Positions 26,690 through 50,569 of a stretch of DNA of 64,000 bases are shown piece by piece. Position 1 is the first letter of the stretch; every line of letters begins with the position of its first letter. Location: positions 520,001 to 584,000 of the forward strand of contig CAUEHT010000004.1 of assembly GCA_958510875.1 (NCBI GenBank). The letters run 5' to 3'. A model generated the notes under the pieces. That model was given only the letters and a program-made list of their open reading frames with translations, had not been told where the DNA came from and did not search any database. The translations under genes and the position numbers were made by a program. The DNA comes from Endomychus coccineus (lineage: Eukaryota; Arthropoda; Insecta; Coleoptera; Endomychidae).

Positions 26690-26796
26690 TCATTGAACGA
26701 GATCCGAATTATTGATCCAACTGTTGTGATTATTATCTAGACCCAACCATTTCACATACTGTTGACCCCTCCTCTTTCGTAATATTTTTTCGACTA
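26690..26796 (-). pseudogene. Integrase 3' end (copy B), separated by element P
   Basis: Encodes the chromodomain-like C-terminus (LRKRRGQQYVKW equivalent, ending NNSDLVQ-like before TGA at 26,690). Its upstream continuation is at 42,196 on the far side of P. The stretch 26,411-26,689 matches the untranslated gap after the integrase in copy C. Confidence 0.9.
26791..26796. other. Left 6-bp target-site duplication of P (CGACTA)
   Basis: CGACTA abuts the AGTAGATA end of P; CAACTA follows the other end (42,196-42,201). The uninterrupted sequence in copy C reads CCGACTAAATACAC, so one six-base copy is original. One base differs between the two. Confidence 0.85.
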
Positions 26797-27240
26797 AGTA
26801 GATACAGTGGACTACCTTTGGGACAGGAAGTGTGACGTCACTTCCGGTCTGTGCTCCGATTATCAGGTCTCCACTTCCGGTCTGCGCTGGCGATGTATGT
26901 TATCGGGTAGATAACGTTATCGGCTAGATAGCGTTATCAGTGATTGTGAGTCACCCATGCTGGCGATGTGTGTAATTAGTGTTATCGGGTAGATAACGTG
27001 ATCGGGTAGATAGCGTTATCAGTGATTGTGAGTCACCCATGCTGGCGATGTGTGTGTAATTAGTGTTATCGGGTAGATAACGTTATCGGGTAGATAGCGT
27101 TATCAGTGATTGTGAGTCACCCGGATGGACATCCAGTGTGTGTAATTAGTGTTATCAGGTAGATAACGTTATCGGCTAGATAGCGTTATCAGTGATTGTG
27201 AGTTACTCGGTTTGTGCTGACGATTGGCATTCGGTGTTTG
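26797..27240. repeat. P left tip and ~84-bp repeats with GATAACGTTATC
   Basis: After about 100 bp of unique tip, four units of 82-85 bp contain GGTAGATAACGTTATCGG and GATAGCGTTATCAGTG. TTATC/GATAA inverted pairs could fold into hairpins. Confidence 0.85.
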
Positions 27241-28030
27241 TAATTATTGTTTGAATGTATATACAGGATGTTTGTAAAGAATGTGTTATGTTGTATATAC
27301 AGGTTGTTTGTAAGAGAGGTCCTAGACACGTGGTGTCATGGCAGTTATCACGTGATCCTTCGGTGTCATGGCGTCTGTCACGGCGGCTATCAACGAGGTG
27401 TCATGGCGTCTGTCACGAGGTGTCATGCTATCTGTTGACGATTGGCATTCGGTGTTTGTAATTATTGTTTGAATGTATATACAGGATGTTTGTAAAGAGT
27501 GTGTTATGTTGTATATACAGGTTGTTTGTAAGAGAGGTCCTAGACACGTGGTGTCATGGCAGCTATCACGTGATCCTTCGGTGTCATGGCGTCTGTCACG
27601 CGGCTATCAACGAGGTGTCATGGCGTCTGTCACGAGGTGTCATGCTATCTGTTGACGATTGGCATTCGGTGTTTGTAATTATTGTTTGAATGTATATACA
27701 GGATGTTTGTAAAGAGTGTGTTATGTTGTATATACAGGTTGTTTGTAAGAGAGGTATTAGACACGTGGTGTCATGGCAGCTATCACGTGATCCTTCGGTG
27801 TCATGGCGTCTGTCACGGCGGCTATCAACGAGGTGTCATGGCGTCTGTCACGAGGTGTCATGCTATCTGCTGACGATTGGCATTCGGTGTTTGTAATTAT
27901 TGTTTGAATGTATATACAGGGGGTTTGTAAAGAGTATGTTATGTTGTATATACAGGTTGTTTGTAAGAAAGGTCCTAGACACGTGGTGTCATGGCAGCTA
28001 TCACGTGAGGTGGTCAACGAGGTATCATGG
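27236..28030 (+). repeat. 217-bp tandem repeat, about 4 units (P left)
   Basis: Units start at about 27,244, 27,462, 27,679 and 27,897, spacing 217-218 bp. Each holds two TGTATATACAGG motifs and GGTGTCATGGCGTCTGTCAC segments. The 60-70 residue ORFs across them are repeat translations. The right end of P has only about two units. Confidence 0.9.
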
Positions 28031-28305
28031 CGGTGAATCGATCATAACGTCTACGACGTGTACATCAAATGAAAAAAAAAAAATGGTATTCTTTGGTGAG
28101 AAAGATTGAAAGGGATCCGAACCCGCATCATTTTTATCTGAAAATGTTCTATTATTTCACATGTATACTTACCAGTTCGATCGACCTCTTATCTCTCACC
28201 CGCAAGAATACCATTTAGTTTTGATTGTATATTTAAGGTTGAAAAAGTCAATAGCGCAGAGGATGTGTGTGACTGCTTCAACTAAATCGAACTCAGTTCG
28301 TGATA

Positions 28306-28815
28306 ATGTCTCCTCGATTATACAACAGTTTTATTCATAGTGTGCTTACCACTGTGTACGATGCGAAGAAATTCGTAATAAGCGCATGTCCGCCGAATAT
28401 GATGGAAATCCTCGAAGAATTACAATTACCATCCAAAAATTGGATAATCGCTGGAGAATTCATAACTTTCCTGGTGGGGGCCTCGACCGATTGGGCGTAT
28501 GCTGATATTTTCTATTTCGGAGGAGATTTCGATCCACCTCCAGAAGATTGGAAGATAATCGATATGAATATAGAAGGTCAGTTCAAATATAAACATAGAA
28601 GAATGGGAAAAATCATATTGCATCAAATTTCCGGTATCGTTCCGAAACCAGGATCGTATATACTTGATTGTTTTAGAGTGCTCCATGATATCGATGTCGA
28701 TTTTTATCGGATCGCACTACTACCATACCGATGTGAGATAATGGACATGCGCAGCATCCGAAGAGATACTTCAAATTCTTACACCTTTAAGATGTTTCAA
28801 CTGTTTCTGAGATAG
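28306..28815 (+). CDS. Nucleotidyltransferase-like protein (P left arm)
   Basis: A 169-residue frame. WIIAGEFITFLVGASTDW followed by YADIFYFGG resembles the glycine-rich and aspartate motifs (GG...S and DxDxF) of minimal nucleotidyltransferases, with A-E for G-G. Further on is RVLHDIDVDFYRIALLP, a layout seen in virus and Polinton hypothetical proteins. Function is not established, and the second acidic position is unusual. The C-terminus is one base out of register with the right-arm copy, which reads on for 33 more residues. First gene after the terminal repeats. Confidence 0.5.
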   Translation: MSPRLYNSFIHSVLTTVYDAKKFVISACPPNMMEILEELQLPSKNWIIAGEFITFLVGASTDWAYADIFYFGGDFDPPPEDWKIIDMNIEGQFKYKHRRMGKIILHQISGIVPKPGSYILDCFRVLHDIDVDFYRIALLPYRCEIMDMRSIRRDTSNSYTFKMFQLFLR

Positions 28816-28960
28816 GAGGGGAGGTCGACTATAGAATAAGTCCATCATCACTACAAATTTTGTGCTTCGACGTACTCTTTCGAAATTTCGTCAAAGAAAT
28901 ATGTTAATGATCTGCGCATGTGCAACTAGATATTTGGATAGTTTATCATTCTAGTTTGAA

Positions 28961-29464
28961 ATGTCGTCTATCGTGGTTGATATTCAAAGTTTCCCGATTT
29001 CTGCAAACGTATATAAAATCAAGGAACTCTCTTTGTTGGACTGTGATAAAAGGTTGGAGAAATATTTTCTATTCAAACCACCAAAATCGATGGATCAACT
29101 ATCTGAGAAGCAAATGAAGAAAATATTTCATTGTGAAAAATATCACGGGATTCCATGGAACTCTGGCTATCAGGAATATGATGAATTGTATGAAATTTTG
29201 AAGGAAAATATCGATCCGGATGCTAGTGTTTATGTATGTGGGAAGATAAAAGCTAAGTTTCTACGGGGGGCGTTCCAAGAATTGGGGTTAGATCGAGTAG
29301 AAGTGGTGAATTTGAAAGGTAAATGTCCAAAATTAGAGCGAGGAAATTGTGAATTCATCTGTTTACATCACCCCAATAGTGTGAATCCTATGTGTTCTAG
29401 TGCGAATAGTTGGAAGTTATTCGAATTTCTTACGAAGGAAGATGTTATGTGGCTCTTAAAATAA
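28961..29464 (+). CDS. RNase H-like/exonuclease-like hypothetical protein (P left arm)
   Basis: 167 residues. The order VVDIQSFPI, KELSLLD, FLFKPP, YHGIPWNSG, VYVCGKIKAKFL, CPKLERGNCEFICLHH, then CSSANSWKLFEF is typical of a family of hypothetical proteins in arthropod virus-derived elements. It begins with a beta strand carrying an acidic residue and ends with Cys/His residues, as in DEDD-type nucleases. I place it there only tentatively. It lies 146 bp after the nucleotidyltransferase-like gene, same strand. Confidence 0.55.
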   Translation: MSSIVVDIQSFPISANVYKIKELSLLDCDKRLEKYFLFKPPKSMDQLSEKQMKKIFHCEKYHGIPWNSGYQEYDELYEILKENIDPDASVYVCGKIKAKFLRGAFQELGLDRVEVVNLKGKCPKLERGNCEFICLHHPNSVNPMCSSANSWKLFEFLTKEDVMWLLK

Positions 29465-29492
29465 TAATATAGATATCTACAAATATATCATT

Positions 29493-29726
29493 ATGGATAT
29501 ATCTTTTGAAGAATACACACGCAGACTTTGCGAATTCGTGGAAAAAGTTCATAAACTAAGAAGAGACTTGAATTTTTACGCAGATAAAATTAAAGTTATA
29601 AGACTGCTGAACAAATTAAGTGTAAAAAGTGGGGATGATGGGAGTGCGGGTGTTGAAAACAAATTTTATGATTCTAACCGCAATTCTGAATGGTATTTTA
29701 TACGCGAACGTTCCCCAACACGTTGA
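29493..29726 (+). CDS. Small coiled-coil protein (P left arm)
   Basis: 77 residues: MDISFEEYTRRL, then a charged helix (VEKVHKLRRDLNFYADKIK) with heptad-like spacing. The second half overlaps the glycoprotein gene in another frame and may be constrained by it. Homologous to the 79-residue ORF of copies C and D. Starts 28 bp after the RNase H-like gene. Confidence 0.55.
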   Translation: MDISFEEYTRRLCEFVEKVHKLRRDLNFYADKIKVIRLLNKLSVKSGDDGSAGVENKFYDSNRNSEWYFIRERSPTR

Positions 29727-30126
29727 ACGCATCTATATTTGTCTGAAGGATGTCGGCGGTGGTGGTGGTGGGGAGTGTAACCGTACCGAATGGATTCCGA
29801 TGAATTTTCAAAAAATCAATGATAACCAATTGGAGGTATTCACATTCGACATCTCACAAGACAATCGTACAACCATACATTATAAACTTAAACTCTTATT
29901 CTTTGATCGAAGTGAGGGGGATATGGCTGAATGGCAAATGATCCGACAATCATCATGTTTACCACATCTCGTACAAAAGACAACTACACTCACATCATCT
30001 GCAATAGAAGGAGAAATACCCAAAATTTTCGCAATTTTGTATGTTATTTTATCTTCTTTATCAGTGTTATTATTGAAAATGTTTGTTAAAAATGTGAAGA
30101 AAGCTATTTACCATTTGAATAAATAA
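29635..30126 (+). CDS. Membrane glycoprotein (P left arm)
   Basis: About 163 residues from the ATG pair at 29,635. N-terminal hydrophobic segment (FMILTAILNGILYA), two NRT sequons, and a C-terminal membrane helix (IFAILYVILSSLSVLLL) followed by a basic tail. Clearly homologous to the glycoprotein of copies A-D but diverged at many positions, so P belongs to a separate lineage. Overlaps the coiled-coil ORF. Confidence 0.7.
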   Translation: MMGVRVLKTNFMILTAILNGILYANVPQHVERIYICLKDVGGGGGGECNRTEWIPMNFQKINDNQLEVFTFDISQDNRTTIHYKLKLLFFDRSEGDMAEWQMIRQSSCLPHLVQKTTTLTSSAIEGEIPKIFAILYVILSSLSVLLLKMFVKNVKKAIYHLNK

Positions 30127-31157
30127 TAATTATTATGTAAAGGAGGTGTTTTATTGAAACAAGCAAAAGATTGATATTAATAATATTTCAGAATAAAATA
30201 CATATTATTTAGGTAGTATTACATTCAGAAACCACTGCTGTAATTTATCCACATGGTGAACTGCACACATGTATTTTCCACCATCATTACGATGATTCAG
30301 ACAGGTCAAATTGTTCGTTTGCTCGAATTTCCCCGTTTCACATTGAGTACCATCGAAACTATGAACCTGAACGATGTGTGGGTAAACATCCAATTCTATA
30401 CACTTCCTTCTCAAAAATTCGGCTTTTTGCTGTCCTCGGACATAAATATAGTCGACTGCACACAGGAGAATCGATTTAAGAATATTATTTATTTCTTCAT
30501 AATCCACATTTCCAGATACATAATCGAGTCCATGATAAGACTTTTGTAAATACCATACGGATTTTCGCTCCTATGCATTTAGCGATGAATAAGATGTGTG
30601 CGGTTTGAATAAGGAATAATGACGTTTGAATCCAATTTGTATACACATTTCTTTTGGATGGAATGCATCGTCGAATTATCGAAACGATCGATTTTCATCG
30701 TTAACCACGATTATCAATCATTATTTAAATCAATCTGCTGTAGGATTGGAATCAAATTCGTGAAAAATTTTAAACAGACTTAGTAGGGAATTTTAAAACA
30801 ATTTATTTTATATTCTTAAATTTTTATTAAATACTTACTTCAACAATCAATAATCGACAGATTTACAAAAACAACATTAATCACATTAAAGGCCCATTTA
30901 AGAGTTTCGTTCACGAGTACAAGCGATGATATTTCGTCCCCTCCCTTCGAAAAAAAAAAATAATTTACAAAATTATTAGAACTTTCAATATGAAAGAACT
31001 TGAATTTTTCAAAATGTGTATCCAAGACAAGAAGGAAGGTAAGAAAATTTTCAAGGCCAATCTATTCACAGATTGTTTTATCGTACATAATTGAAATCTT
31101 TTCAAAAATAATACAAAAAAACCCGAGTGTTTGAGATACATAGCTATTAGAACGTTC
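30052..31157. other. Segment present only in the left arm of P
   Basis: Mirror-coordinate sums change from 70,547 (inside) to 69,442 (outside), so about 1,105 bp are present here and absent from the right arm. The right-arm junction lies near 39,388-39,400 and joins TGTATGTTATTTT to CAATAATTTCACTTGG. From about 30,700 to 31,157 I see no gene. Confidence 0.85.
30205..30698 (-). pseudogene. Second RNase H-like gene, broken (P left arm only)
   Basis: The open part (30,205-30,507) has YIYVRGQQKAEFL, a Cys cluster (LTCLNH, MCAVHHVDKL) and a C-terminal QQWF, the same layout as the gene at 28,961. Reading further upstream in the same frame gives KSYHGLDYVSG, then a TAG, then LFKP and HPKEM, so the gene originally started near 30,698 and now has a nonsense codon and a probable frameshift. 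The corresponding segment of the right arm is deleted. Confidence 0.65.
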
Positions 31158-31839
31158 AATAATTTCACTTGGAATCCACAACTGATTTTATACCACATAT
31201 CGGAAAATATATATTTGCGAACAAAGAAACATCGTAATTTCGCTCTTTCCGTTTTCAAATCTCTGTCAAAAATTTGATATAGTAGGAAAGAATAGAAGTA
31301 GCTCAGAATTAAATTCTATTCACAGGGCAAAATAATTTTGATTGACTGTCATCACCAACAATATCAATTGTGATTTACTATGATCCATAAGGTTATGAAT
31401 ATTTACTTTTTTTAACTACATGTATATTGCGTAATTCTTATTCCGATTCCAATCTAATCTGCTTCATTATATTGATTCCGATTCTTAACAACTTCCACAC
31501 TAATGAAGTTCTTTGTTTCAATCGAGTTTTGACTTCATTACGGATCACATTTTATGCAATTCTCCGTAAATGTAATATCTATATAGTTCAAGCAATACAT
31601 GCAGAAATTAATACCTGGAAAAAAAATATGAGCGTATAGCAAATTAAATTTAAAAAGGTGAGTTTCTGCAACTCGATCTGAAATGTCGAACATAACTTAC
31701 AAAATTGGCAAAAATGCTGTTTTTCTTAAAAAACTATAGCTCGGATCGGAAATAGTTAAAGGAGAAAGTTGTAGGTATCAGATAGATAATTATCGATATC
31801 TTTCATACTTTTCGAGTTATATTGAAAAAACCGTTGACA
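31158..31839. other. Non-coding arm DNA (P left arm)
   Basis: AT-rich DNA, mirrored at 38,708-39,389, without supported genes. One short ORF (31,427-31,639) is conserved in the mirror copy only because the arms are near-identical. Confidence 0.4.
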
Positions 31840-32130
31840 ATCGTTATTGGGAGGGTCTTTGAAAACAGTCATATCACATTGTCATTAGTTACAAAACGTT
31901 TTTTCTTGGGAGGGTCCAAATGTTTTTTGGGAGGGTCCAAACGTTCTTTGGGAGGATCCAATCGTTATTGGGAGGGTCTTTAAAAACAGCCATATCACAT
32001 TGTCATTAGTTACAAAACGTTTTTTCTTGGGAGGGTCCAAATGTTTTTTGGGAGGGTCCAAACGTTCTTTGGGAAAATCCAATCGTTATTGGGAGGGTGT
32101 TTGAAAACAGCCATATCACATTGTCATTAG
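31840..32130 (+). repeat. TTGGGAGGGTCC repeat array (P left arm)
   Basis: About 115-bp unit repeated two and a half times; each contains three or four TTGGGAGGGTCC or TTTGGGAGG motifs plus CATATCACATTGTCATTAG. It directly precedes the zinc-finger gene and is mirrored at 38,417-38,707. Antisense translation gives a PPKK-rich ORF that is a repeat artefact. Confidence 0.8.
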
Positions 32131-32146
32131 TTAATCATCAACCACC

Positions 32147-32467
32147 ATGCACGTTTGCGGGCAATGTCAAAGGGAATTTTCGAGAGCAAATGCGCTGAGG
32201 CGGCACGAGAAAAAACATTTCAAAACACACAGTTTCTCATGCAAGCATTGTGAAGCTACATTTTCTCGCCGAGACAATTTGAATCGTCATATTATGTTAT
32301 TCCACAGTCGAGATAAAAGTATAATTTACTGGTCCAACCCAGATGTTCTACTGGACCGGTTAGAAGAAATCATACCTCTACAAGGATATATCGAAGAGAA
32401 ACGTGAAATAATTAATGAATTAAGAAGATTTTGTAATAAATGGTATTTGAATAAAAACTCGAAATGA
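32147..32467 (+). CDS. C2H2 zinc-finger protein (P left arm)
   Basis: 106 residues with two classical fingers: Cys4-Cys7-His20-His24 and Cys32-Cys35-His48-His53, each with the FSR...L..H core. The C-terminal half (54-106) is a charged helix-rich tail (LDRLEEIIPL, EEKREIINELRRF). Likely a sequence-specific DNA-binding protein in the nucleus, perhaps acting on the repeat array just upstream; that target is a guess. The mirror copy has an identical protein sequence. Confidence 0.8.
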   Translation: MHVCGQCQREFSRANALRRHEKKHFKTHSFSCKHCEATFSRRDNLNRHIMLFHSRDKSIIYWSNPDVLLDRLEEIIPLQGYIEEKREIINELRRFCNKWYLNKNSK

Positions 32468-32586
32468 TTGATCGTTTTCCACTATTTTTTTACATTATTT
32501 AAGTCAATGAAGGTGTAGGATCGAATTTCATCTTCAACGATGATTCTCAGAGAGATTATTGGTGTGAAAGTTTGCGCGATTTTGTT

Positions 32587-32943
32587 ATGTTGGTTCGACG
32601 CAATTTTGCGAACGATGATTCAGAGAGAATGTTTTGGTGTGAAGGTTCGCCATCGAATATCATTACCCCTCATGGGGATTTTTCATGCATTGCAGACATT
32701 TCAAACTCTTCTAAAACTCGGAAAAACTATCTTCAGACGCCCGCCGCTAAGCCCGATATCTTTGTAGAACATTTAGTTGCAACTGAATGGTTCGATTGCA
32801 TGTTTTTCGATGGGAATTGTTCTACAGTTTCCATTGCTTTCAGACACACGTTTTCCACATCATGCACTGCAGTTAGAACGAAATTGTTGTATACTGGATA
32901 CATCATTACAACTGATTGTTTAATTCATTTGAATCCACACTGA
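32587..32943 (+). CDS. Unknown ORF with internal duplication (P left arm)
   Basis: 118 codons from the first ATG; the frame is open upstream to 32,505. Just before and after the start the segments NDDSQRDYWCES and NDDSERMFWCEG form an internal repeat, so part of the protein may lie upstream of the ATG or be joined by splicing (a TTTAAG acceptor-like site is at about 32,502). I do not recognise it. Mirror copy at 37,604-37,960 differs by W/S and T/I changes. Confidence 0.4.
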   Translation: MLVRRNFANDDSERMFWCEGSPSNIITPHGDFSCIADISNSSKTRKNYLQTPAAKPDIFVEHLVATEWFDCMFFDGNCSTVSIAFRHTFSTSCTAVRTKLLYTGYIITTDCLIHLNPH

Positions 32944-32986
32944 CCCTTCAATAGTTATTCATCCACGCTCAAATCATACAACATTG

Positions 32987-33203
32987 TATTTCCCGCTCAA
33001 ACTGAATTGTTCGTAGAGCGCTTCTTCAAACGTTCTAATAATGCGATAGCGACTTTTTCATAGAATAGGTATTGCAATGACTGATTTTATGTTTTTCCAT
33101 TAACTTGTTATTAAAGTGCTTATTATTTTCCACGATCGCCTTGCAGATTCCTAAGTTTACGATGTTCTTCCAGGAATATCAAACTAACCGCTTTTCGAAC
33201 CTC
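32987..33203 (-). pseudogene. Integrase core fossil (P left arm)
   Basis: DNA matches, with many substitutions and small indels, the part of the copy B/C integrase gene around the second and third catalytic residues (AAAGCG..GATCG..GGAAAA, GAAGAAAC and the SLSGKY region). Compare 42,560-42,795. It has no open frame and lies antisense to the zinc-finger gene. Confidence 0.75.
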
Positions 33204-33925
33204 AAAACGAGTAAACTTGAAAATGTAACATATAATTCTATTATATCAATATTTCCACATCCAACTCTGAATACAACTACCTTATTCATTGTTATTTTAG
33301 ACTGAAATGTTTGTAGTGGTTAGAATTTCTCCAAAATGAACTAGAATTTTGCGAAGAGGAAATTGATTAAAATTTTGAATATCTCGGTTCACACTATCCA
33401 TTTCGCTTAACATACTTTTATAAAATATGGAATGAATTATTATCGAAACGATTTCATCGTTTTCCACGATTGTTAATGATTATCCAAATGAAAACTCTCT
33501 AAACTAATGAAAAATTCACCAAATTTTAACTTGAGGATATCGATGAAATAATATTCATAATAATAATCTGCAGAATAATTAGAGCGATTCCTCTTAAACC
33601 CGCTAGTCTATTATTGCGTTATAAAATATGATGATTTGAATCAATCATTGTTCTAATTATTTATCAAACTATTATGCGATATAATAGAAGACAAACTTAG
33701 TTTCCCTTCAGCTAGATATCATTCATTCACAATACAATTCCTTTAATATTGTAGAAACTTTGATAATGATTCAAATGTTCACATGTTATATAAAAATCGA
33801 ATGAATAGCTTAAAATATCTGAATATTTGAAATATCGATGATTCAGATATCATATTCGATTGAGTATACTGATGTTGTAGCTATATAGCCTTCTATTAAT
33901 AAGCCAATGAACTAGTTGAATGTCA
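33204..33925. other. Arm-centre junction zone of P
   Basis: No gene seen. Mirror similarity with 36,820-37,343 continues to about 33,735 and then stops, which marks the inner end of the left arm. Confidence 0.5.
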
Positions 33926-33929
33926 ATGT

Positions 33930-34400
33930 CAATGTTAGTGTATCTGCATCATCACATTCTGTTCATACTGATATGAGAACGCAAACGCGTGTGAGTTTAA
34001 CAATGAGTGAATCATTTGTAGTACATACAATCTGTTAATTCAAGTTTTTGGATGATATGACTGATGATTTGAATTCCACAGTCATTTGATCTGATTTATT
34101 AATAAAACAGTGCTTTCTATACGCAAAATACACATTAAAATTAATAATTTTATTTCATGTTAGTGTATCTGCATCATCACATTCTGTTCATACTGATATG
34201 AGAACGCAAACGCGTGTGAGTGTAACAATGAGTGAATCATTTGTAGTACATACAATCTGTTAATTCAAGTTTTTGGATGATATGACTGATGATTTGAATT
34301 CCACAGTCATTTGATCTGATTTATTAATAAAACAGTGCTTTTTATAGGCAAAATCTTATTTTCAATAAAAACACATTAAAATTAATAATTTTATTTCAGA
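33930..34400 (+). repeat. Direct duplication, unit about 226 bp (P centre)
   Basis: Two near-identical copies begin ATGTTAGTGTATCTGCATC at about 33,932 and 34,158. The second carries a small insertion near its end. The reverse complement of this region lies downstream of the spliced gene. Confidence 0.85.
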
Positions 34401-34471
34401 CTAATAATAATAATAATACATTTTATAAACTTATATATATATATATAAAAAAAATGAATGAAGTACCCTGT

Positions 34472-35475
34472 TCACCCCCATTTAAAGGTATAGGATCCAC
34501 CAGTGTTAGATTGAATTTTCCTCAACTGCGAAAGAATGAAAAATATATTAGTATAATCAATATAAGAACTAAAAATGTGCATACCTCCACAATCAAAACT
34601 GCTAAGTCTACACCCGTGCCATATATACGCAACTGATCAATATCTTCTTCTTTCGGTGGTGTTGTTGAGGGTGGTAGTGGATGTAGATTCGATCTAGAGG
34701 ATGATGGAGGTGGTGTTGATTGATCTCTGTAAACAGTAAAATGATGTTCCAGGAATTCCTATAGTAATTAAAATTAAATAACTAACCTTATTTGATCAGC
34801 ATCATCAATTATGATGGAGGTGATAGGAGTAAGTGGGAACTGCCTTTTTTGTTTCTTCCTATTGATATTGGATGAGGGACTTGTTGGTCTCTTTCTACAT
34901 CCACTAAAATTGCGTTGAAGAATTAAAAGAAGAATATCGAAAACAACAGAATGAAACTTACTTTTCATTTCTAATCCTTGTTGATGATTGCATCCTGTCA
35001 ACACTGTTATTATTGTCAGCTCTATAAGAAATTTATTATTAGTTTTAACAATGTCTGATTATATTTTTCTTAATGAACTTACACATTATGTAATTCATTG
35101 ATTAAAACCTCTCTCCCGTCGTTCAGGGTACACCTCTCTATTTCCCCATCGTTCATCGTTAATTAACTGTCAACAAATTATAATTAAAAATCTTTAGAAT
35201 GATGTTAAGAATAGAGAACATACCCTCTAATCGAATTATCTTCATTCAAAACTACTAATGTGCTATGAGTCCCTACAGGGTCATCATTATATTTTGAAAT
35301 AGTCCCATCATTCTTACTCATATATACAATATAACCACTGAAAAATTAGTAAAAAGATATGAAATTTTATTAATAGATATTTCTTAATGAAACTTACTTT
35401 TCAGATAAATATGCAGGTGGATCAACCGGTGGTGTATATCTATTTGTTAGTTGTTCCATCAAATCATACATCATA
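34472..35475 (-). CDS. Multi-exon gene in the centre of P
   Basis: Minus-strand exons inferred from splice signals: 35,398-35,475; 35,224-35,337; 35,083-35,166; 34,962-35,021; 34,787-34,903; 34,585-34,726; 34,472-34,525. The introns are 60, 57, 61, 58, 60 and 59 nt, all GT-AG. The first five exons are multiples of three and the splices joining them share the same phase, a symmetric-exon pattern. A stop lies at the beginning of exon 3, followed by a new ATG, so either the gene is broken or two products exist. Exons 4-6 encode a basic and then proline/serine-rich region. Retaining the last intron would add a hydrophobic VCTFLVLILIILIYFSF end; splicing gives a short SNTGGSYTFKWG end. No family recognised. 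Confidence 0.6.
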
Positions 35476-35519
35476 CTTAAAAAGAGATGATTTCAAAATT
35501 TTAACGAAAGAATTTTCAG

Positions 35520-36545
35520 AGCAATCAAATCAGAAACTTGAACTGCTAATGAGGAAAGGTCCCTGATTGAAATTATGAGAAAATGTGTTTCTTTGTTTTG
35601 AAAATATATTAAAATTCCTTTGAATCAAATTAAAAATGAAATCTATTCAATAACTAATGGAAAAATTAAAACGAAATTATTTCAAAAAATATTAAGATCT
35701 GAAAAAGTTAACTTCATAATCAATGAATATTGATCTGAAAGAAAAATTGGTTCATTGAAATTAGTGAAATGATATTTTTAAGTTGTGAAAACATCATGAA
35801 TTTTCTTTCATATATTAGGTTAAAAACATATTTAATCAATACTTCCTTTCGGTAAATTACATTTTACAATTGATAAAAATAGCATCTGATGAATAATTGT
35901 TGTCATCCATAAAATTTATGTTTTTCCCTAATTGAAATTAGGAGAAAATGTGTTTCTTTGTTTTGAAAACATATTAAAATTCCTTTGAATCAAATTAAAA
36001 TTGATAAAAATGATAACTATTCAATAACTAATAGAGAAATCAAAACGAAATTATTTCGAAAAAATATTAAGATCTGAAAAAGCTAACTTCATAATCAATG
36101 AATATTGATCTGAAAGAAAATTTGGTTCGCTAATTTAAATTAGGAGAAAATGTGTTTCGTTGTTTTGAAAACACATTAAAATTCCTTTGAATCAAATTAA
36201 AATTGATAAAAATGATATCTATTCAATAACTAATAGAAAAATTAAAACGAAATTATTTCAAAAATATTAAGATCTGAAAAAGTTAACTTCATAATCAATG
36301 AATATTGATCTGGAAGGAAAATTGGTTCATTGAAATTAGTGGAAATGATATTTTTAAGTTGTGAAAACATCATAAATTTTCTTTCAATCACAACTAGTTT
36401 TTCATATATTAGGTTAAAACATATTTAATCATAACTTCCTTCGGTAAATTATATTTTACAAGTGATAAAAATAGCATCTGATGAATAACAGGAAAATTGA
36501 AACTTACCTTGAAACAGCTGAACACAAATGATTTCTCGTACATTA
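35520..36545. repeat. Three AT-rich direct repeats (P centre)
   Basis: Copies at about 35,568-35,830, 35,930-36,130 and 36,138-36,420 share GGAGAAAATGTGTTTC and TAAAATTCCTTTGAATC. They lie upstream of exon 1 of the spliced gene and could be part of a long first intron: on the minus strand an AAG-GTAAGT donor sits at about 36,502-36,510 and a TATATATA box at about 36,553-36,562. Confidence 0.7.
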
Positions 36546-36617
36546 AACACTACTATATATAGGCAAATTTTATATTACCTAAGGGAAAAAGCAGACGCCT
36601 TTGATTAAATTGTTGTT

Positions 36618-37010
36618 GTGAATGAATGATATCTAGCTGAAAGGAAACTGAGTTTGTCTTCTATTCTATCGCATAATATTTTGATAAATAATTAGAACAA
36701 TGATTGATTCAAATCATCATATTTTATAACGCAATAATAGACTCGCGGGCTTAAGAGGAATCGCTCTAATTATTCTGCAGATTATCATTATGAATATTAT
36801 TTTATCGTTATCCTTTGTGAATGAATGATATCTAGCTGAAGGGAAACTGAGTTTGTCTTCTATTATATCGCATAATAGTTTGATAAATAATTAGAACAAT
36901 GATTGATTCAAATCATCATATTTCATAACGCAATAATAGACTAGCGGGTTTAAGAGGAATCGCTCTAATTATTCTGCAGATTATTATTATGAATATTATT
37001 TCATCGATAT
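36618..37010. repeat. Direct duplication at the inner edge of P right arm
   Basis: Two copies of about 190-200 bp, both beginning GTGAATGAATGATATCTAGC. Only one copy exists in the left arm (33,540-33,735), so the duplication is right-arm specific. Confidence 0.8.
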
Positions 37011-37343
37011 TCTCAAGTTAAAATTTGGTGAATTTTTCATTAGTTTAGAGAGTTTTGATTTGGATAATCATTAACAATCGTGGAAAACGATGAAATCGTT
37101 TCGATAATAATTCATTCCATATTTTATGAAAGTATGTTAAGCGAAATGGATAGTGTGAACCGAGATATTCAAAATTTTAATCAATTTCCTCTTCGCAAAA
37201 TTCTAGTTCATTTTGGAGAAATTCTAACCACTACAAACATTTCAGTCTAAAATAACAATGAATAAGGTAGTTGTATTCAGAGTTGGATGTGGAAATATTG
37301 ATATAATAGAATTATATGTTACATTTTCAAGTTTACTTGTTTT

Positions 37344-37560
37344 GAGGTTCGAAAAGCGGTTAGTTTGATATTCCTGGAAGAACATCGTAAACTTAGGAAT
37401 CTGCAAGGCGATCGTGGAAAATAATAAGCACTTTAATAACAAGTTAATGGAAAAACATAAAATCAGTCATTGCAATACCTATTCTATGAAAAAGTCGCTA
37501 TCGCATTATTAGAACGTTTGAAGAAGCGCTCTACGAACAATTCAGTTTGAGCGGGAAATA
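37344..37560 (+). pseudogene. Integrase core fossil (P right arm)
   Basis: Exact mirror of 32,987-33,203, with coordinates summing to 70,547. Confidence 0.75.
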
Positions 37561-37603
37561 CAATGTTGTATGATTTGAGCGTGGATGAATAACTATTGAA
37601 GGG

Positions 37604-37960
37604 TCAGTGTGGATTCAAATGAATTAAACAATCAGTTGTAATGATGTATCCAGTATACAACAATTTCGTTCTAACTGCAGTGCATGATGTGGAAAACGTG
37701 TGTCTGAAAGCAATGGAAACTATAGAACAATTCCCATCGAAAAACATGCAATCGGACCATTCAGTTGCAACTAAATGTTCTACAAAGATATCGGGCTTAG
37801 CGGCGGGCGTCTGAAGATAGTTTTTCCGAGTTTTAGAAGAGTTTGAAATGTCTGCAATGCATGAAAAATCCCCATGAGGGGTAATGATATTCGATGGCGA
37901 ACCTTCACACCAAAACATTCTCTCTGAATCATCGTTCGCAAAATTGCGTCGAACCAACAT
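37604..37960 (-). CDS. Unknown ORF with internal duplication (P right arm)
   Basis: Mirror copy of the ORF at 32,587, open over the same length with only two or three substitutions. Conservation may reflect gene conversion between the arms rather than selection. Confidence 0.4.
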   Translation of the reverse strand: MLVRRNFANDDSERMFWCEGSPSNIITPHGDFSCIADISNSSKTRKNYLQTPAAKPDIFVEHLVATEWSDCMFFDGNCSIVSIAFRHTFSTSCTAVRTKLLYTGYIITTDCLIHLNPH

Positions 37961-38079
37961 AACAAAATCGCGCAAACTTTCACACCAATAATCTCTCTGA
38001 GAATCATCGTTGAAGATGAAATTCGATCCTACACCTTCATTGTCTTAAATAATGTAAAAAAATAGTGGAAAACGATCAA

Positions 38080-38400
38080 TCATTTCGAGTTTTTATTCAA
38101 ATACCATTTATTACAAAATCTTCTTAATTCATTAATTATTTCACGTTTCTCTTCGATATATCCTTGTAGAGGTATGATTTCTTCTAACCGGTCCAGTAGA
38201 ACATCTGGGTTGGACCAGTAAATTATACTTTTATCTCGACTGTGGAATAACATAATATGACGATTCAAATTGTCTCGGCGAGAAAATGTAGCTTCACAAT
38301 GCTTGCATGAGAAACTGTGTGTTTTGAAATGTTTTTTCTCGTGCCGCCTCAGCGCATTTGCTCTCGAAAATTCCCTTTGACATTGCCCGCAAACGTGCAT
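38080..38400 (-). CDS. C2H2 zinc-finger protein (P right arm)
   Basis: Protein identical to that at 32,147-32,467. The upstream TTGGGAGGGTCC array is also mirrored (38,417-38,707). Confidence 0.8.
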   Translation of the reverse strand: MHVCGQCQREFSRANALRRHEKKHFKTHSFSCKHCEATFSRRDNLNRHIMLFHSRDKSIIYWSNPDVLLDRLEEIIPLQGYIEEKREIINELRRFCNKWYLNKNSK

Positions 38401-39389
38401 GGTGGTTGATGATTAACTAATGACAATGTGATATGGCTGTTTTCAAACACCCTCCCAATAACGATTGGATCCTCCCAAAGAACGTTTGGACCCTCCCAAA
38501 AAACATTTGGACCCTCCCAAGAAAAAACGTTTTGTAACTAATGACAATGTGATTTGGCTGTTTTTAAAGACCCTCCCAATAACGATTGGATCCTCCCAAA
38601 GAACGTTTGGACCCTCCCAAAAAACATTTGGACCCTCCCAAGAAAAAACGTTTTGTAACTAATGACAATGTGATATGACTGTTTTCAAAGACCCTCCCAA
38701 TAACGATTGTCAACGGTTTTTTCAATATAACTCGAAAAGTATGAAAGATATCGATAATTATCTATCTGATACCTACAACTTTCTCCTTTAACTATTTCCG
38801 ATCCGAGCTATAGTTTTTTAAGAAAAACAGCATTTTTGCCAATTTTGTAAGTTATGTTCGACATTTCAGATCGAGTTGCAGAAACTCACCTTTTTAAATT
38901 TAATTTGCTATACGCTCATATTTTTTTTCCAGGTATTAATTTCTGCATGTGTTGCTTGAACTATATAGATATTACATTTACGGAGAATTGCATAAAATGT
39001 GATCCGTATTGAAGTCAAAACTCGATTGAAACAAACAACTTCATTAGTGTGGAAGTTGTTAAGTATCGGAATCAATATAATGAAGCAGATTAGATTGGAA
39101 TCGGAATAAGAATTACGCAATATACATGTAGTTAAAAAAAGTAAATATTCATAACCTTATGGATCATAGTAAATCACAATTGATATTGTTGGTGATGACA
39201 GTCAATCAAAATTATTTTGCCCTGTGAATAGAATTTAATTCTGAGCTACTTCTAATCTTTCCTACTATATCAAATTTTTGACAGAGATTTGAAAACGGAA
39301 AGAGCGAAATTACGATGTTTCTTTGTTCGCAAATATATATTTTCCGATATGTGGTATAAAATCAGTTGTGGATTCCAAGTGAAATTATT

Positions 39390-39806
39390 GAAAATAACAT
39401 ACAAAATTGCGAAAATTTTGGGTATTTCTCCTTCCATTGCAGATGATGTGAGTGTAGTTGTCTTTTGTACGAGATGTGGTAAACATGATGATTGTCGGAT
39501 CATTTGCCATTCAGCCATATCCCCCTCACTTCGATCAAAGAATAAGAGTTTAAGTTTATAATGTATGGTTGTACGATTGTCTTGTGAGATGTCGAATGTG
39601 AATACCTCCAATTGGTTATCATTGATTTTTTGAAAATTCATCGGAATCCATTCGGTACGGTTACACTCCCCACCACCACCACCGCCGACATCCTTCAGAC
39701 AAATATAGATGCGTTCAACGTGTTGGGGAACGTTCGCGTATAAAATACCATTCAGAATTGCGGTTAGAATCATAAAATTTGTTTTCAACACCCGCACTCC
39801 CATCAT
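39390..39806 (-). pseudogene. Membrane glycoprotein (P right arm), membrane anchor lost
   Basis: The signal segment and both NRT sequons are intact. The 1.1-kb right-arm deletion cuts the gene at KIFAILYVI and fuses about 30 unrelated residues, so the transmembrane helix is removed. If expressed it could be secreted. Confidence 0.75.
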
Positions 39807-39948
39807 CACCACTTTCTACACTTAATTTGTTCAGCAGTCTTATAACTTTAATTTTATCTGCGTAAAAATTCAAGTCTCTTCTTAGTTTATGAACTTTTTC
39901 CACGAATTCGCAAAGTCTGCTTGTGTATTCTTCAAAAGATATATCCAT
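39715..39948 (-). CDS. Small coiled-coil protein (P right arm)
   Basis: 77 residues, mirror of 29,493-29,726 with two substitutions (S for R at position 11, E for K near position 50). Confidence 0.55.
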   Translation of the reverse strand: MDISFEEYTSRLCEFVEKVHKLRRDLNFYADKIKVIRLLNKLSVESGDDGSAGVENKFYDSNRNSEWYFIRERSPTR

Positions 39949-39976
39949 AATGATATATTTGTAGATATCTATATTA

Positions 39977-40468
39977 TTATTTTAAGAGCCACATAACATC
40001 TTCCTTCGTAAGAAATTCGAATAACTTCCAACTATTCGCACTAGAACACATAGGATTCACACTATTGGGGTGATGTAAACAGATGAATTCACAATTTCCT
40101 CGCTCTAATTTTGGACATTTACCTTTCAAATTCACCACTTCTACTCGATCTAACCCCAATTCTTGGAACGCCCCCCGTAGAAACTTAGCTTTTATCTTCC
40201 CACATACATAAACACTAGCATCCGGATCGATATTTTCCTTCAAAATTTCATACAATTCATCATATTCCTGATAGCCAGAGTTCCATGGAATCCCGTGATA
40301 TTTTTCACAATGAAATATTCTCTTCATTTGCCTCTCAGATAGTTGATCCATCGATTTTGGTGGTTTGAATAGAAAATATTTCTCCAACCTTTTATCACAG
40401 TCCAACAAAGAGAGTTCCTTGATTTTATATACGTTTGCAGAAATCGGGAAACTTTGAATATCAACCAC
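39977..40468 (-). pseudogene. RNase H-like protein (P right arm), stop at codon 2
   Basis: The ATG that starts the left-arm gene is followed here by TAG (TCG on the left). The rest of the frame is open, with small changes (ERQMKRIF for EKQMKKIF). No other suitable ATG exists near the N-terminus. Confidence 0.65.
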
Positions 40469-40533
40469 GATAGACTACATTTCTAACTAGAATGATAAAC
40501 TATCCAAATATCTAGTTGCACATGCGCAGATCA

Positions 40534-41136
40534 TTAACATATTTCTTTGACGAAATTTCGAAAGAGTACGTCGAAGCACAAAATTTGTAGTGATGATGGA
40601 CTTATTCTATAGTCGACCTCCCCGCCTATCTCAGAAAACAGTTGAAACATCTTAAAGGTGTAAGAATTTGAAGTATCTCTTCGGATGCTGCGCATGTCCA
40701 TTATCTCACATCGGTATGGTAGTAGTGCGATCCGATAAAAATCAACATCGATATCATGGAGCACTCTAAAACAATCAAGTATGTACGATCCTGGTTTCGG
40801 AACGATACCCGAAATTTGATGCAATATGATTTTTCCCATTCTTCTATGTTTATATTTGAACTGACCTTCTATATTCATATCGATTATCTTCCAATCTTCT
40901 GGAGGTGGATCGAAATCTCCTCCGAAATAGAAAATATCAGCATACGCCCAATCGGTCGAGGCCCCCACTAGGAAAGTTATGAATTCTCCAGCGATTATCC
41001 AATTTTTGGATGGTAATTGTAATTCTTCGAGGATTTCCATCATATTCGGCGGACATGCGCTTATTACGAATTTCTTCGCATCGTACACGGTGGTAAGCAC
41101 ACTATGAATAAAACTGTTGTATAATCGAGGAGACAT
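40534..41136 (-). CDS. Nucleotidyltransferase-like protein (P right arm), long form
   Basis: 200 residues from the ATG. Identical to the left-arm protein up to KMFQLF, then reads on through SEIGGEVDYRI to FVKEIC because of one extra T. This is more likely the original form, since the left-arm tail is only two residues. Confidence 0.55.
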   Translation of the reverse strand: MSPRLYNSFIHSVLTTVYDAKKFVISACPPNMMEILEELQLPSKNWIIAGEFITFLVGASTDWAYADIFYFGGDFDPPPEDWKIIDMNIEGQFKYKHRRMGKIILHQISGIVPKPGSYILDCFRVLHDIDVDFYRIALLPYRCEIMDMRSIRRDTSNSYTFKMFQLFSEIGGEVDYRISPSSLQILCFDVLFRNFVKEIC

Positions 41137-41344
41137 TATCACGAACTGAGTTCGATTTAGTTGAAGCAGTCACACACACCCTCTGCGCTATTGAATTTTT
41201 CAACCTTAAATATACAATCAAAACTAAATGGTATTCTTGCGGGTGAGAGATAAGAGGTCGATCGAACTGGTAAGTATACATGTAAAAGAATAGAACATTT
41301 TCAGATAAAAATGATGCGGGTTCGGATCCCTTTCAATCTTTCTC

Positions 41345-42195
41345 ACCAAAGAATACCATTTTTTTTCATTTGATGTACACGTCGTAGACGTTATGATCGA
41401 TTCACAACCGCCATGATACCTCGTTGACCACCTCACGTGATAGCTGCCATGACACCACGTGTCTAGGACATTTCTTACAAACAACCTGTATATACAACAT
41501 AACATACTCTTTACAAACCCCCTGTATATACATTCAAACAATAATTACAAACACCGAATGCCAATCGTCAGCAGATAGCATGACACCTCGTGACAGACGC
41601 CATGACACCTCGTTGCTAGCCGCCGTGACAGACGCCATGACACCGAAGGAACACGTGATAGCTGCCATGACACCACGTGTCTAGGACCTCTCTTACAAAC
41701 AACCTGTATATACAACATAACACACTCTTTACAAACATCCTGTATATACATTCAAACAATAATTACAAACACCGAATGCCAATCGTCAGCACAAACCGAG
41801 TAACTCACAATCACGCTATCTAGCCGATAACGTTATCTACCTGATAACACTTATCACACACACTGGATGTCCATCCGGGTGACTCACAATCACTGATAAC
41901 GCTATCTACCGATAACGTTATCTACCCGATAACGCTAATTACACACACATCGCCAGCATGGGTGACTCACAATCACTGATAACGCTATCTAGCCGATAAC
42001 GTTATCTACCCGATAACACTAATTACACACACTGGATGCCAGACCGAGTCACTGATAACGCTATCTAGCCGATAACGTTATCTACCCGATAACATACATC
42101 GCCAGCGCAGACCGGAAGTGGAGACCTGATAATCGGAGCACAGACCGGAAGTGACGTCACACTTCCTGTCCCAAAGGTAGTCCACTGTATCTACT
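41345..42195. repeat. Right terminal repeats of P
   Basis: Mirror of the left end with fewer units: about two 217-bp units (41,400-41,790), then 82-85-bp GATAACGTTATC units and the unique tip. The last 120 bp equal the left tip exactly. Confidence 0.85.
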
Positions 42196-43018
42196 CAACT
42201 AAATACACACCGGTTTGTTTTGTTTTCTGTAATTCTTCCTCATAGAAACAGCCGCTGATTGGTGCGTTGGTCATATCTTCTAGTAGATATGTGACCGGGT
42301 TGGTAATCATTACTTTGATGATTTTAAATAATTCCGTACTCCAATTGGGCGTAAATCACTTCTCAAAAATATGTTTAGCCTTACTTACTCGTACCACATC
42401 TCCAACGTTGTATTTGTGAGGCAGAGCTAACTTGATGTGTGAGTAAGATCGCTTCAATATCTCGCTCTCAATCTGTTTCGTCACTTTTATTGGAGCCATA
42501 TTTATAGTACTATGTTTACGTTTATTATATTTTCCTGTGGTTTCTTCAAGTATATCAAGCCATTTGTATTTCCCGCTAAGACTGAAATGTTCGTAGAGCG
42601 ATTCCTTTAATGTTCGAATGACACGTTCAGCAATGGCTGCTTTTTTCACACTATACGTATTATAATGATTGATATTATGTTTCTTCATTAGATCGTTAAA
42701 GTGTTCATTGAAGAATTCTTTTCCCTGATCGCTTTGCAGATTCGTAGTCTTACGATGTCCTTCTAGCAATATAGAACTGACCGCTTTCCGAACCTCTTCG
42801 GCTGATTTCGTTTTCAGCTTGCGTGTCCATAGAAATTTCGAGAAACAATCGATCATAACCAAAATGTATTTGAATCCTCTATTTTCACGAGCGTAATTAC
42901 CCATTTCAGCCAGATCCATTTGCCACAAATCATCCAAACCTTTTATGATTGTTCTGCGTCGTTTGAAATTCTTCCTCCTCGGTTTATGAAGCTCATGCAC
43001 AACTTGTTCTCCACTCAT
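42196..43018 (-). pseudogene. Integrase 5' part (copy B), split by P and nonsense
   Basis: Encodes the N-terminal and catalytic core (LWQMDLAEM, NLQSDQGKEFF, IAERVIRTLKESL) and stops at a TGA in place of the glycine of EKGFTP (near 42,356). It continues to the P insertion point at VYLV. CAACTA at 42,196-42,201 is the right target-site copy. Confidence 0.9.
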
Positions 43019-43035
43019 CTTATCAATGTGGAAAT

Positions 43036-43680
43036 CTAGTGTAGAATTAATTTTTTGGGTATATTCACAGGATTTGGAGATATACGTTTCACAGAGCCCT
43101 GCTTTGTTGTTGTGGATGATGAGGGTCTCTTCTTAGAAGGTTCCATAGATGTTATCCGTCGTTCTAACGCCTCAACTTTACTAGTAATGTCATTTAGACG
43201 CATGTTCACACTGTTAAATGTGTTATTGATCTCTTTCAATTCATTTCTGTTTTCCCTCACACTATCACTGATTGTTTCATACTCTGATTTTATATAGATC
43301 CCCATTTCATTATATTTATTCTGAATGTCCATCAGATGTTTATCAATGTTGAGAATAACCTTCTCATTCGTTAATTTATGTTCATCCAGATCCTTGTTTA
43401 TATCTTTGATCAAATTATCAACCCTAACATTGAAGGTATCTTTAAGACTGGTTTCCGTTTTCAGATTCAGTTTGTGTGTTAATTTATCAACATATACTTT
43501 ATTTGCAACATCTCCATCATCATTCGGTTATTTTACGTTGCACAATCTACGATTTTCCATATCATAACTTCCATCGCTCGTTAGGAATAATTCTTGTCCG
43601 TGAACTTGTTTGAAATTATTATTAAATATATTTGTATCATATATTCACATGGAAGAGGAGGCTCTGCCAAACTTATCCAT
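43036..43680 (-). pseudogene. Fiber-like coiled-coil protein (copy B), nonsense
   Basis: The coiled-coil part (43,036-43,413) is open. An in-frame TAA near 43,528 interrupts the segment equivalent to KSPNDDGD, and a second break separates the N-terminal tip. The ATGGATAA overlap with the upstream gene is conserved. Confidence 0.8.
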
Positions 43681-44737
43681 TGAAACCATCTTTATAACTG
43701 TGATGAATTTGTCTTACACCTGGTTTTCGTTCAATTACCCCTGCCTCTATCAATTCTTCTATTATAGAGATTATCTCGTTGTGATGATTATGGTTACCTG
43801 CATGCGAGGATGCAACAAGAAGTCTCAGTCTATCCACAATTTCGTTAACGTCATCTCAATAAACATATTCGATAGGTTTCTCGTTATATTCAAGCATATC
43901 ATTTTTGATATATGCAATTCCAGTGTATGTTTTGGCTCTGGGTTTTTTCATGGAATTAATCAAAGGTTTCAGTACATTTTTGTATTTCACAATGTTCCTT
44001 ATTCGATCAGCTGGATCGTTATTTCGTCTGTGGGCACTAGTCATTTCCATCATTTGACTGTAATTTTCCCCATCTTCCACAGTGTAAGTATCAGGTAGAA
44101 CATCTCTGTAAAATATCAAATTATACAGTCCTGTGGTACCCTTGAACGAAGTACCCTTGATAATTATATTACTCTCACTATCAATTTCTATAGGTTGATT
44201 ACCCATGAACCATTTGTCTGAAGTTGAATTATATTGCAATCCCATTCTATCATCGTATTTCTTGACATCATCATCCAATATGAATCCTTCCAAGTAATAA
44301 CGTGCTAATGTGGGGTATTGTTGCAGAAACTCCTCTGTAGCCTCTGCATTATCTGACTTATGTTTTCTGAATTCTTCACGAATCTGATCGATAGTAGGTT
44401 CGAGGGTAAACACATCCTCCTCAGTATTTTGGGGGTCTTATACGAACTCTTCCCCTTCAGTTACAATATTTGGGATTGGTATGTTCTACATTTGTGTTGC
44501 TGTAGAAACAATACTTTTAGGTTTAACCAACGAATTTTGTTTGATTATTTCAGCATTTCTCGCAATTTCCTCCAGAGGTTCAGATACATTCCTGAACATA
44601 TTATCTAGAATCTCATCATTTTCAGCTTTACCCAATTTCACAGCCCTATATTTTTTCCTCACAACGTTTGCTAACTCCCAAATTTTTTTCTCCAATTGTT
44701 GTTTTTCCTTTAGCATGTTACTCACACCCATGTCCAT
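43673..44737 (-). pseudogene. DUF8207-type protein (copy B), several stops
   Basis: Matches copy C along its length, with stops after ATQM, after EEFV and after EYVY, and no large deletions. Confidence 0.85.
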
Positions 44738-44779
44738 GCTGAGCGGGTTGTCTATTTCAAATGAAAGTATATATACATG

Positions 44780-45505
44780 TTAGATGTATATATAACTATC
44801 AAAACCTTTGCAATAACGTCCTTTGTTCATATCACAGTCTTTGTTTATCATAAGGAATCCATATTTATCTTTCCAACATACGCTACATATCTCTTTGAAT
44901 TTCTCGAGTGACATGTCGGTACTTACATGATCGGTGAATATATGTTTCAAATTGAGCTCATCCTATTTGAAAATAATCAAGCAATCGGCATTGTCGCGCA
45001 ATCCATGTTTTGGACATTTAGCAAAAGACTGGCAAAGATAGAAACTATCAATTGAATTGTGTCTCCCTCTTGAAAAATAAGCACGAATTTTCTCCTGTTT
45101 CTCAAACATCACGTCATCGAATATTATGATTGAATTAGGCCTCGCTTCTGTGGGGTCTATGACCTCATCACTTTCGGTACAAGGAAAATATCCAAGCCCC
45201 TCAATTTTCTTCAATCTCTCCTTTAGTAACTGGTATTTTGGTTGGTGTAAGGACTTTGAATATATGTACTAGTTTTCAAATTTCAGGCCGTTAGCATCTA
45301 ACAATAGAGATAACATCACATTTGTTTTCCCACAATTACTTGGACCACAGATTATTGTTCGTAGAGTATTAGGCAGCAAAGAGCTGTGACGTTGTGGTTG
45401 TTCAACATTCTCATTGCTTGACCCTAAGTTCATAATACTCAACGAGTCTTTTTGCTTAACAATCTTCATCATGCCTGAAGGCGAATCGAAATCATACTGG
45501 AACAT
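44780..45505 (-). pseudogene. Packaging ATPase (copy B), two nonsense codons
   Basis: TAG replaces an alanine codon after LKFEN, and a second TAG follows CLIIFK. The P-loop reads GPSNCGKTN, the canonical form, unlike copy C. Starts 20-25 bp after a TATATAAA-like box. Confidence 0.85.
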
Positions 45506-45609
45506 ATGTTAATAAGCATTTGTTTATATACTAGATGGTGATGTTATATTGTGTATGTCTGATCACGCGGTTAGGTGCTTCTACGCTTCTGTCAAAATCA
45601 GGTATCAAA

Positions 45610-45880
45610 TACATGTTAAATAGGTATGAATGTTGAAACACGTGTCTGAATGCTGAATCACGTGTCTGAATGTTGAAACACGTGTCTGAAACACGTGTCT
45701 GAATGTTGAAACACGTATCTGAATGTTGAAACACGTGTCTGAAAAACGTGTCTGAATGTTGAAACACGTGTCTGAAACACGTGTCTGAATGTTGAAACAC
45801 GTGTCTGAATGTTGAAACACGTGTTTGAATACTGAAACACGTGTCTGAATGTTAAAGCATGTGTTGAATCATGCGATAAA
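45610..45880 (-). repeat. 20-bp CACGTG repeat upstream of ATPase (copy B)
   Basis: About a dozen units of ACACGTGTTTCAACATTCAG (plus-strand view CTGAATGTTGAAACACGTGT), with some half units. Confidence 0.9.
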
Positions 45881-45924
45881 ACATGTGCATGAATGTATTA
45901 CAAACATTATGATTATTCACATTT

Positions 45925-50280: not shown

Positions 50281-50314
50281 TAAAATGTGAATAATCATAA
50301 TGATTGTATTACAT

Positions 50315-50475: not shown

Positions 50476-50569
50476 CCTATTTAACATGTATTTGATACCT
50501 GATTTTGACAGAACCGTAGAAGCACCTAACCGCGTGATCAGACATACACAATATAACATCATCATCTAG

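Follow-up and report, generated by a model that had tools for sequence, protein, structure and literature searches.

In the 64,000 nucleotides of Endomychus coccineus analysed here (assembly GCA_958510875.1, contig CAUEHT010000004.1, positions 520,001 to 584,000, forward strand; hereafter the window), a palindromic element, P, is inserted in the integrase gene of copy B of a Maverick-like family. This family, represented in the window by copies A, B and C, is called the A-C family below and is the presumed helper of P. The features that define the insertion are as follows.

26797-42195, no strand assigned: element P, 15,399 bp; its 20-bp inverted ends match perfectly, and its flanks overlap by 6 bp at the empty site of C
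26791-26796, plus strand: left target-site duplication CGACTA, in flank sequence placed by alignment to C
42196-42201, plus strand: right target-site duplication CAACTA, one mismatch from the left copy
53899-53904, minus strand: empty target site in copy C, a single CGACTA placed by flank alignment
19168-48140, minus strand: copy B, interrupted by P, with integrase pieces flanking P; it has AGTAGATG at the left end, and no right end was seen where C abuts
48141-62035, plus strand: copy C, 13,895 bp, with AGTAGAT at both ends

Boundaries and palindromic structure of P

The 400-bp flanks of P were identical to copy C at 382/400 positions on the left and 385/400 on the right, and the two alignments shared exactly 6 bp of C. 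Together with the end copies, this overlap is what a single insertion by an integrase leaves behind, and the empty-site alignment fixed the ends of P without reference to any database. The terminus AGTAGATACAGTGGACTACC was present in the window only at 26797 (plus strand) and 42195 (minus strand), with up to 4 substitutions allowed. P has the inverted ends starting AG/AGT and the 6-bp target-site duplication, here with one mismatch, of Polinton/Maverick elements. The ends, target duplication and empty site correspond to a single integration of a molecule with ends of Maverick type. The initial annotation had reported AG...CT ends of Polinton type, the near-duplication CGACTA/CAACTA and a visible empty site in C, and all three were recovered, the empty site exactly.

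The ends also relate P to copy C. A search for AGTAGATG/AGTAGATA, which would miss ends lacking these motifs, returned 7 matches, 5 of them element ends (both of P, both of C and the left end of B) and 2 inside integrase genes. The first 150 bp of P scored 31 against the right end of C (maximum of 300 shuffles, 18) and 27 against its left end (shuffle maximum 19).

Within these boundaries the element consists of two inverted arms and a spacer.

26797-33732, plus strand: left palindrome arm, 6,936 bp
36815-42195, minus strand: right palindrome arm, 5,381 bp, without 1,106 bp of the left arm
33733-36814, no strand assigned: spacer, 3,082 bp; the inner edge of the right arm is repeated here in a 199-bp tandem copy, and several donor sites resemble those of introns
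27218-28008, plus strand: 218-bp tandem repeat array of the terminal region, 3.6 units

The arms make up 80% of P, in agreement with the earlier description of a 15.4-kb palindrome. Outside the terminal tandem repeats they differed at 35 of 4,544 sites (0.77%) plus two 1-base indels (insertions or deletions), in a comparison that excludes positions 26797-28080 of the left arm and the 1,106 bp for which the right arm has no counterpart; over the whole arms, with the tandem repeats and about 28 columns past the inner edge included, there were 67 mismatches in 5,402 columns. The left arm is longer by a further 435 bp, corresponding to two 218-bp tandem units. The 199-bp tandem copy adjoining the inner edge of the right arm was identical to the left arm at 190/199 positions, and the arm proper at 197/200. 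Because this copy directly follows the inner edge, the palindrome breakpoint lies at a repeat junction, which fits a template switch. On the minus strand of the spacer, a run of short open stretches closing at GTAAGT-type donors (34420-36600) resembles a decayed multi-intron gene. Two exon candidates from it, joined by hand, matched no protein family in a Pfam scan, and Rfam and tRNA scans gave no match.

P was confirmed to interrupt the integrase of copy B, at a site corresponding to codon 311-313 of the 345-codon integrase frame of C, past the catalytic core (Pfam rve, 68-159). The integrase of B has its own premature stop upstream of this site, so P need not have disabled it, and the capsid gene of B is broken too. 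Family sequence accounted for 73% of the window outside P, with the boundaries used here, and the two integrase genes for about 4%, which makes chance an adequate explanation of the insertion site. The targeted disabling of the helper by P was rejected as unneeded. Of the two options left by the initial annotation, chance or a limit on the helper, the first is sufficient, and the second is not supported, given the independent breaks in the integrase and capsid genes of B.

The integrase fragment and its age

Both arms carry a remnant of an integrase gene.

32986-33203, minus strand: integrase fragment of the left arm, in three frames, matching codons 113-189 of the C integrase (tblastn, linked E 1e-16)
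37344-37561, plus strand: integrase fragment of the right arm, mirror image of the left-arm fragment

The recognisable part covers 77/345 codons, and about 78% of the gene is no longer recognisable. Its three pieces scored 40.4, 38.5 and 34.3 bits, against a best match of 32.0 bits in 15 block-shuffled versions of P. The two fragments are identical over 218 nt, which means that the integrase lesions predate the arms or the last homogenisation of the arms. Compared with the integrase of C, the fragment has 4 indels, 3 of which shift the frame. The ratio of nonsynonymous to synonymous substitution rates (dN/dS) of the fragment against C was 0.17 (bootstrap 5-95%, 0.08-0.33; 70 codons), so the loss of the integrase would have closed a long functional history.

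The divergence between B and C limits the time that these lesions could have taken in place. The two copies differed at 253 of 9,450 sites (2.68%) with 9 indels over the element, and at 33 of 800 sites (4.1%) beside P. With half of the B-C divergence as the upper bound for the residence of P in B, and an indel rate of 9 per 253 substitutions, 0.11-0.16 indels were expected in the fragment during residence, and the probability of at least 3 was 1.9e-4 to 6.5e-4; taking the indel rate from the arms, where it is higher, raised the expectation to 0.40 (hand calculation) and the probability to 0.008. The dating assumes no homogenisation of B with C after the arrival of P, against which the above-average divergence beside P argues. 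Since so few indels are expected during residence in B, the integrase of P was most likely already dead when P integrated, and the integration would then have been carried out in trans.

Genes of P and of the presumed helper family

P carries the following open reading frames (ORFs).

40537-41169, minus strand: ORF1, 211-codon open frame; left-arm counterpart of 180 codons at 28273-28812, plus strand
28955-29461, plus strand: ORF2, 169-codon open frame with a KYHGIPWNSG stretch; also open in the right arm, 39980-40474, minus strand
29460-29723, plus strand: small ORF common to P and the A-C family, overlapping the next gene; right-arm copy 39718-39981, minus strand
29626-30123, plus strand: predicted membrane glycoprotein common to P and the A-C family; right-arm copy truncated C-terminally by the deletion
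30208-30570, minus strand: ORF2 paralogue, 121-codon open frame, left arm only
32135-32464, plus strand: C2H2 zinc-finger ORF, 110 codons (PF00096, E 7.7e-10); also 38083-38412, minus strand

The glycoprotein module that had been described as shared with the family was found as such. In tblastn the glycoprotein showed 80% amino-acid identity to the A-C family (E 1.4e-87) and the small ORF 74% (E 1.9e-35); the membrane topology of the glycoprotein was judged by eye from its sequence. At the nucleotide level the shared module (29481-30185) was 83-84% identical to A, B and C and 80% to a partial copy at 62928-63613, and the right-arm copy was 84-85% identical to A, B and C over a shorter stretch. 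The dN/dS of the glycoprotein gene, with copies B and D and the right-arm copy excluded, came to 0.25 in the comparison with C (166 codons, dS 0.36) and to 0.26 in that with A. Judged by these ratios, the predicted membrane-glycoprotein gene common to P and C is under purifying selection.

The structural genes of the family were not detected in P, as the initial annotation had stated for capsid, ATPase and intact integrase. With proteins of C as tblastn queries, capsid, penton, ATPase, protease and PLA2 gave no signal above the 15 block-shuffled controls (best bits 22.3-32.0): the best matches in P were 21.9 bits for the major capsid protein, 20.0 for penton, 20.8 for ATPase, 20.8 for protease and 20.4 for PLA2, and integrase appeared only as the fragment. 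No polymerase-sized frame was present in P, the longest having 211 codons, and a Pfam scan of 10 of its ORFs, a part of its frames, gave no polymerase match.

ORF1 had no protein relative at E<=1e-3 and no Pfam match above cut-off. ORF2 had a single protein relative, P0001 (E 1.4e-10, 30% identity), and aligned with its paralogue in P at 31% identity over 115 columns (BLASTP, E 3e-8 for one comparison). ORF2 and the paralogue have in common a conserved YHG stretch and Cys/His residues, with one distant relative in public data. Two weak matches to solved structures that would make them gasdermin relatives (E 0.045 and 0.057) were taken as chance, and the AlphaFold models were too poor for folds to be judged, with a mean predicted local distance difference test score of 46 for ORF2 and 32 for ORF1. 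A 121-bp tandem repeat (31838-32133) lies directly ahead of the zinc-finger ORF in both arms of P.

Copy C was the reference for the gene set of the family. Pfam identified a double jelly-roll (DJR) capsid gene (PF21738, E 2.7e-89), an rve integrase (E 4.4e-15) and an MSV199-domain gene (E 1.4e-5). Matches below the Pfam cut-offs were a poxvirus A32-type ATPase (E 3.3e-4), an adenovirus-type protease (E 0.0056) and a Chromo domain in the integrase (E 0.0038, 17.5 bits, cut-off 25.1). The PLA2-type domain was clear in B (PF08398, E 6e-11) and weak in C (E 0.15), with frames of 250 codons in B and 217 in C. A putative penton gene of C had no Pfam match. The capsid of C had 453 relatives, and the species named among the 120/453 listed were beetles and ants, which points to an insect as the probable host; compared with solved structures the capsid gave nothing better than E 0.35. 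IMG/VR and GTDB contig scans, neither collection being meant to hold insect genomes, returned no relative.

A polymerase gene was looked for in both copies. In C no frame exceeded 92 codons between the left end and the ATPase or 85 codons at the other end, and in B none exceeded 106 codons on the ATPase side. Three occurrences of one polymerase motif in the window all lay in tandem-repeat arrays and were dismissed. Copy C may contain a spliced or strongly diverged polymerase, but judging from the frames the common ancestor of B and C had probably lost it already. B and C (42196-48140 and 48141-62035) carry structural genes and integrase with no polymerase gene found, and the family was evidently copied after the loss.

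Further observations concern the repeats and neighbours of the family. The terminal repeats of C are about 2.1 kb long. In the family's terminal repeats there are arrays of 25-bp and 59-bp units containing a TGTCATGGCG core (11753-12782, 19290-20354, 46600-47600, 48347-50117 and 59999-61830), and the same core is also found inside the 218-bp repeats of P. To its left, C is bordered by a terminal repeat of B, and to its right by the interior of a repeat belonging to another element, which indicates that C has been rearranged. An isolated fragment at 8520-9548 is about 90% identical to the region of a 368-codon ORF of C. ORFs of a Gypsy-type retrotransposon lie on the minus strand at 734-5778; the frame at 734-2038 has integrase zinc-binding and rve domains, and the remainder was labelled by eye.

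Origin and mobilisation of P

We favour the interpretation, at a probability of about 0.62, that P derives from an insect Polinton/Maverick as a non-autonomous element resembling a satellite, and that it was palindromised and then inserted into B in trans. An ancestor of P would have encoded a functional integrase akin to the one in C, and this gene would have been broken and mostly lost, as the fragment shows. End-to-middle copy-back during linear, protein-primed replication could then have produced the two arms, and the palindromic molecule would have kept terminal sequences recognised by a Maverick integrase. An integrase acting in trans, as the dating supports, would have inserted it into copy B; the AGTAGAT ends and the 6-bp duplication suggest that this enzyme came from the A-C family or from an unseen close relative. 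Since no polymerase was found in P or C, the replication of both would have used another Maverick or the host. P, which has no capsid or integrase of its own, corresponds to a satellite in this respect; it seems to travel on borrowed machinery, and we infer that it belongs to a satellite lineage.

The initial annotation had proposed a satellite mobilised in trans by this family, and had missed the integrase fragment of each arm, the absence of a polymerase from C and the separate stop in the integrase of B. Mobilisation in trans gained support from the dating, given the identical frameshifted fragments and too many lesions for the time of residence, for the one copy seen. Integrase and capsid could come from the A-C family, but this family shows no polymerase and was not singled out over an unseen relative; the presumed helper is probably itself dependent. 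A reading with three tiers within a single insect genome, in which P rides on a polymerase-less capsid/integrase Maverick family that itself depends on a polymerase-encoding Maverick or the host, the palindrome is an adapted heritable form and the insertion damps the helper, is rather unlikely.

Several results weigh against the favoured interpretation. The 64-kb window holds a single copy of P, by which repeated mobilisation in trans is not shown, and gene conversion between B and C could make the bound on residence too short. The dS of the integrase fragment (0.88) is larger than that of the glycoprotein gene (0.36); the glycoprotein module may have been exchanged later between lineages, and P would then be less close to C than it looks. 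The small ORF, with dN/dS of 0.57-0.80 in four comparisons against C and D, is weakly constrained, and all dN/dS figures pool both lineages. ORF1 has 180 codons in the left arm, compared with 211 in the right, where in turn the glycoprotein gene is cut short. Copy C has no target duplication (ACCCTC at 48135-48140, GGTGTC at 62036-62041) and, with its shorter PLA2-type frame, may itself not be intact. The end sequence that had been described as common to P and the family held for both ends of C, above shuffles, and for the AGTAGAT ends, but not for the left end of B, which scored 15 against a shuffle maximum of 16 and was not significant.

The alternatives overlap, and their probabilities are not required to sum to one. 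P could be a one-off: a defective genome that arose by copy-back replication in a Maverick infection, integrated once and founded no lineage. This agrees with the favoured interpretation on the origin of the palindrome and differs on persistence. The near-complete palindrome and the single copy seen speak for it, and symmetric, end-duplicated defective genomes are known from adenoviruses; no paper on them was found, by title, among the 8 of 2,416 listed. Like P, the adenovirus genomes have both ends from one parental end and a long palindrome around other DNA; unlike P, they emerge during passage and are not known to be inserted by an integrase. The integrase was broken before the arms formed, however, so the parent had already survived for a period with no intact integrase. 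The three longest left-arm frames (180, 169 and 166 codons) exceed the 95% bound of 145 codons from 200 shuffles, though the largest shuffled frame had 206. We consider a one-off product unlikely. Decay in place is a slightly poorer explanation: P would have arrived in B as an ordinary Maverick equipped with an integrase of its own, and break repair from the opposite terminal repeat would have made the palindrome afterwards. Repair templated by inverted repeats is a known process, and the mismatch in the target duplication (chance 4.5% at the 0.77% of the arms, 15% at 2.7%) fits an insertion older than the arms. Against this, the residence bound is too short for 3 frameshifts and an integrase gene about 78% unrecognisable, and the capsid, ATPase and protease genes would have had to disappear without trace in the same time.

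It is scarcely credible that the structure is an assembly or read artefact, such as a hairpin read joined into a palindrome. Palindromes are a known artefact of long reads, but this one stops exactly at conserved ends, and on either side of it lies one half of B, with 6 bp duplicated. In addition, 35 substitutions and a 1,106-bp deletion separate the arms, and a 3.1-kb spacer lies between them. Very improbable, too, is an autonomous element of another kind in which ORF1 and ORF2 perform replication and integration. Both lack an assigned function and their structure models are too poor to judge, which leaves room for such a role, but at 169-211 codons they are far below the 1,162 aa described for the protein-primed polymerase of the two Spodoptera Mavericks (PMC5803895), and Maverick-type ends and duplication require no second integrase.

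Comparison with known systems places P and C near the insect Mavericks. C resembles insect Mavericks/Polintons and alpha-class adintoviruses in having an rve integrase, in which the chromo match is weak, a PLA2-type protein and a DJR capsid of about 405 aa, together with weak matches to an A32-like ATPase and an adenovirus-type protease; P has ends, duplication length, integrase fragment and glycoprotein in common with C. Spodoptera Maverick 1 and 2 are described with a 1,162-aa POLB and a gene set comparable to that of C (PMC5803895); C lacks such a POLB, and P lacks all but the glycoprotein module and the integrase fragment. Adintoviruses are defined by a PolB with an OTU-like domain (PMC11071296), which was not found in C. 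Vertebrate Mavericks are reported with 6-bp target duplications, (AGT)2 or (AG)3 end motifs and a total length similar to that of P, but their terminal repeats of 46-1,447 bp (mean 402) are exceeded by the terminal repeats of C and, far more, by the 5.4- and 6.9-kb arms of P (PMC8097293). Transpovirons and virophages, like P, lack a structural module or depend on another virus; transpovirons are described as keeping a replication protein of their own (PMC11071308), whereas P, a resident of an animal genome, showed none. Among the titles and abstract openings listed, no palindromic Maverick satellite was described.

With two arms, one fragment and one empty site, the locus provides an internal clock that argues for integration in trans without recourse to another genome. 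Further copies of P would be predicted to share the palindrome and the integrase lesions. The locus also points to a capsid-bearing Maverick family seemingly copied without a polymerase gene. Satellites of Mavericks, if the interpretation is true, would be for animal DNA viruses what virophages are for giant viruses.

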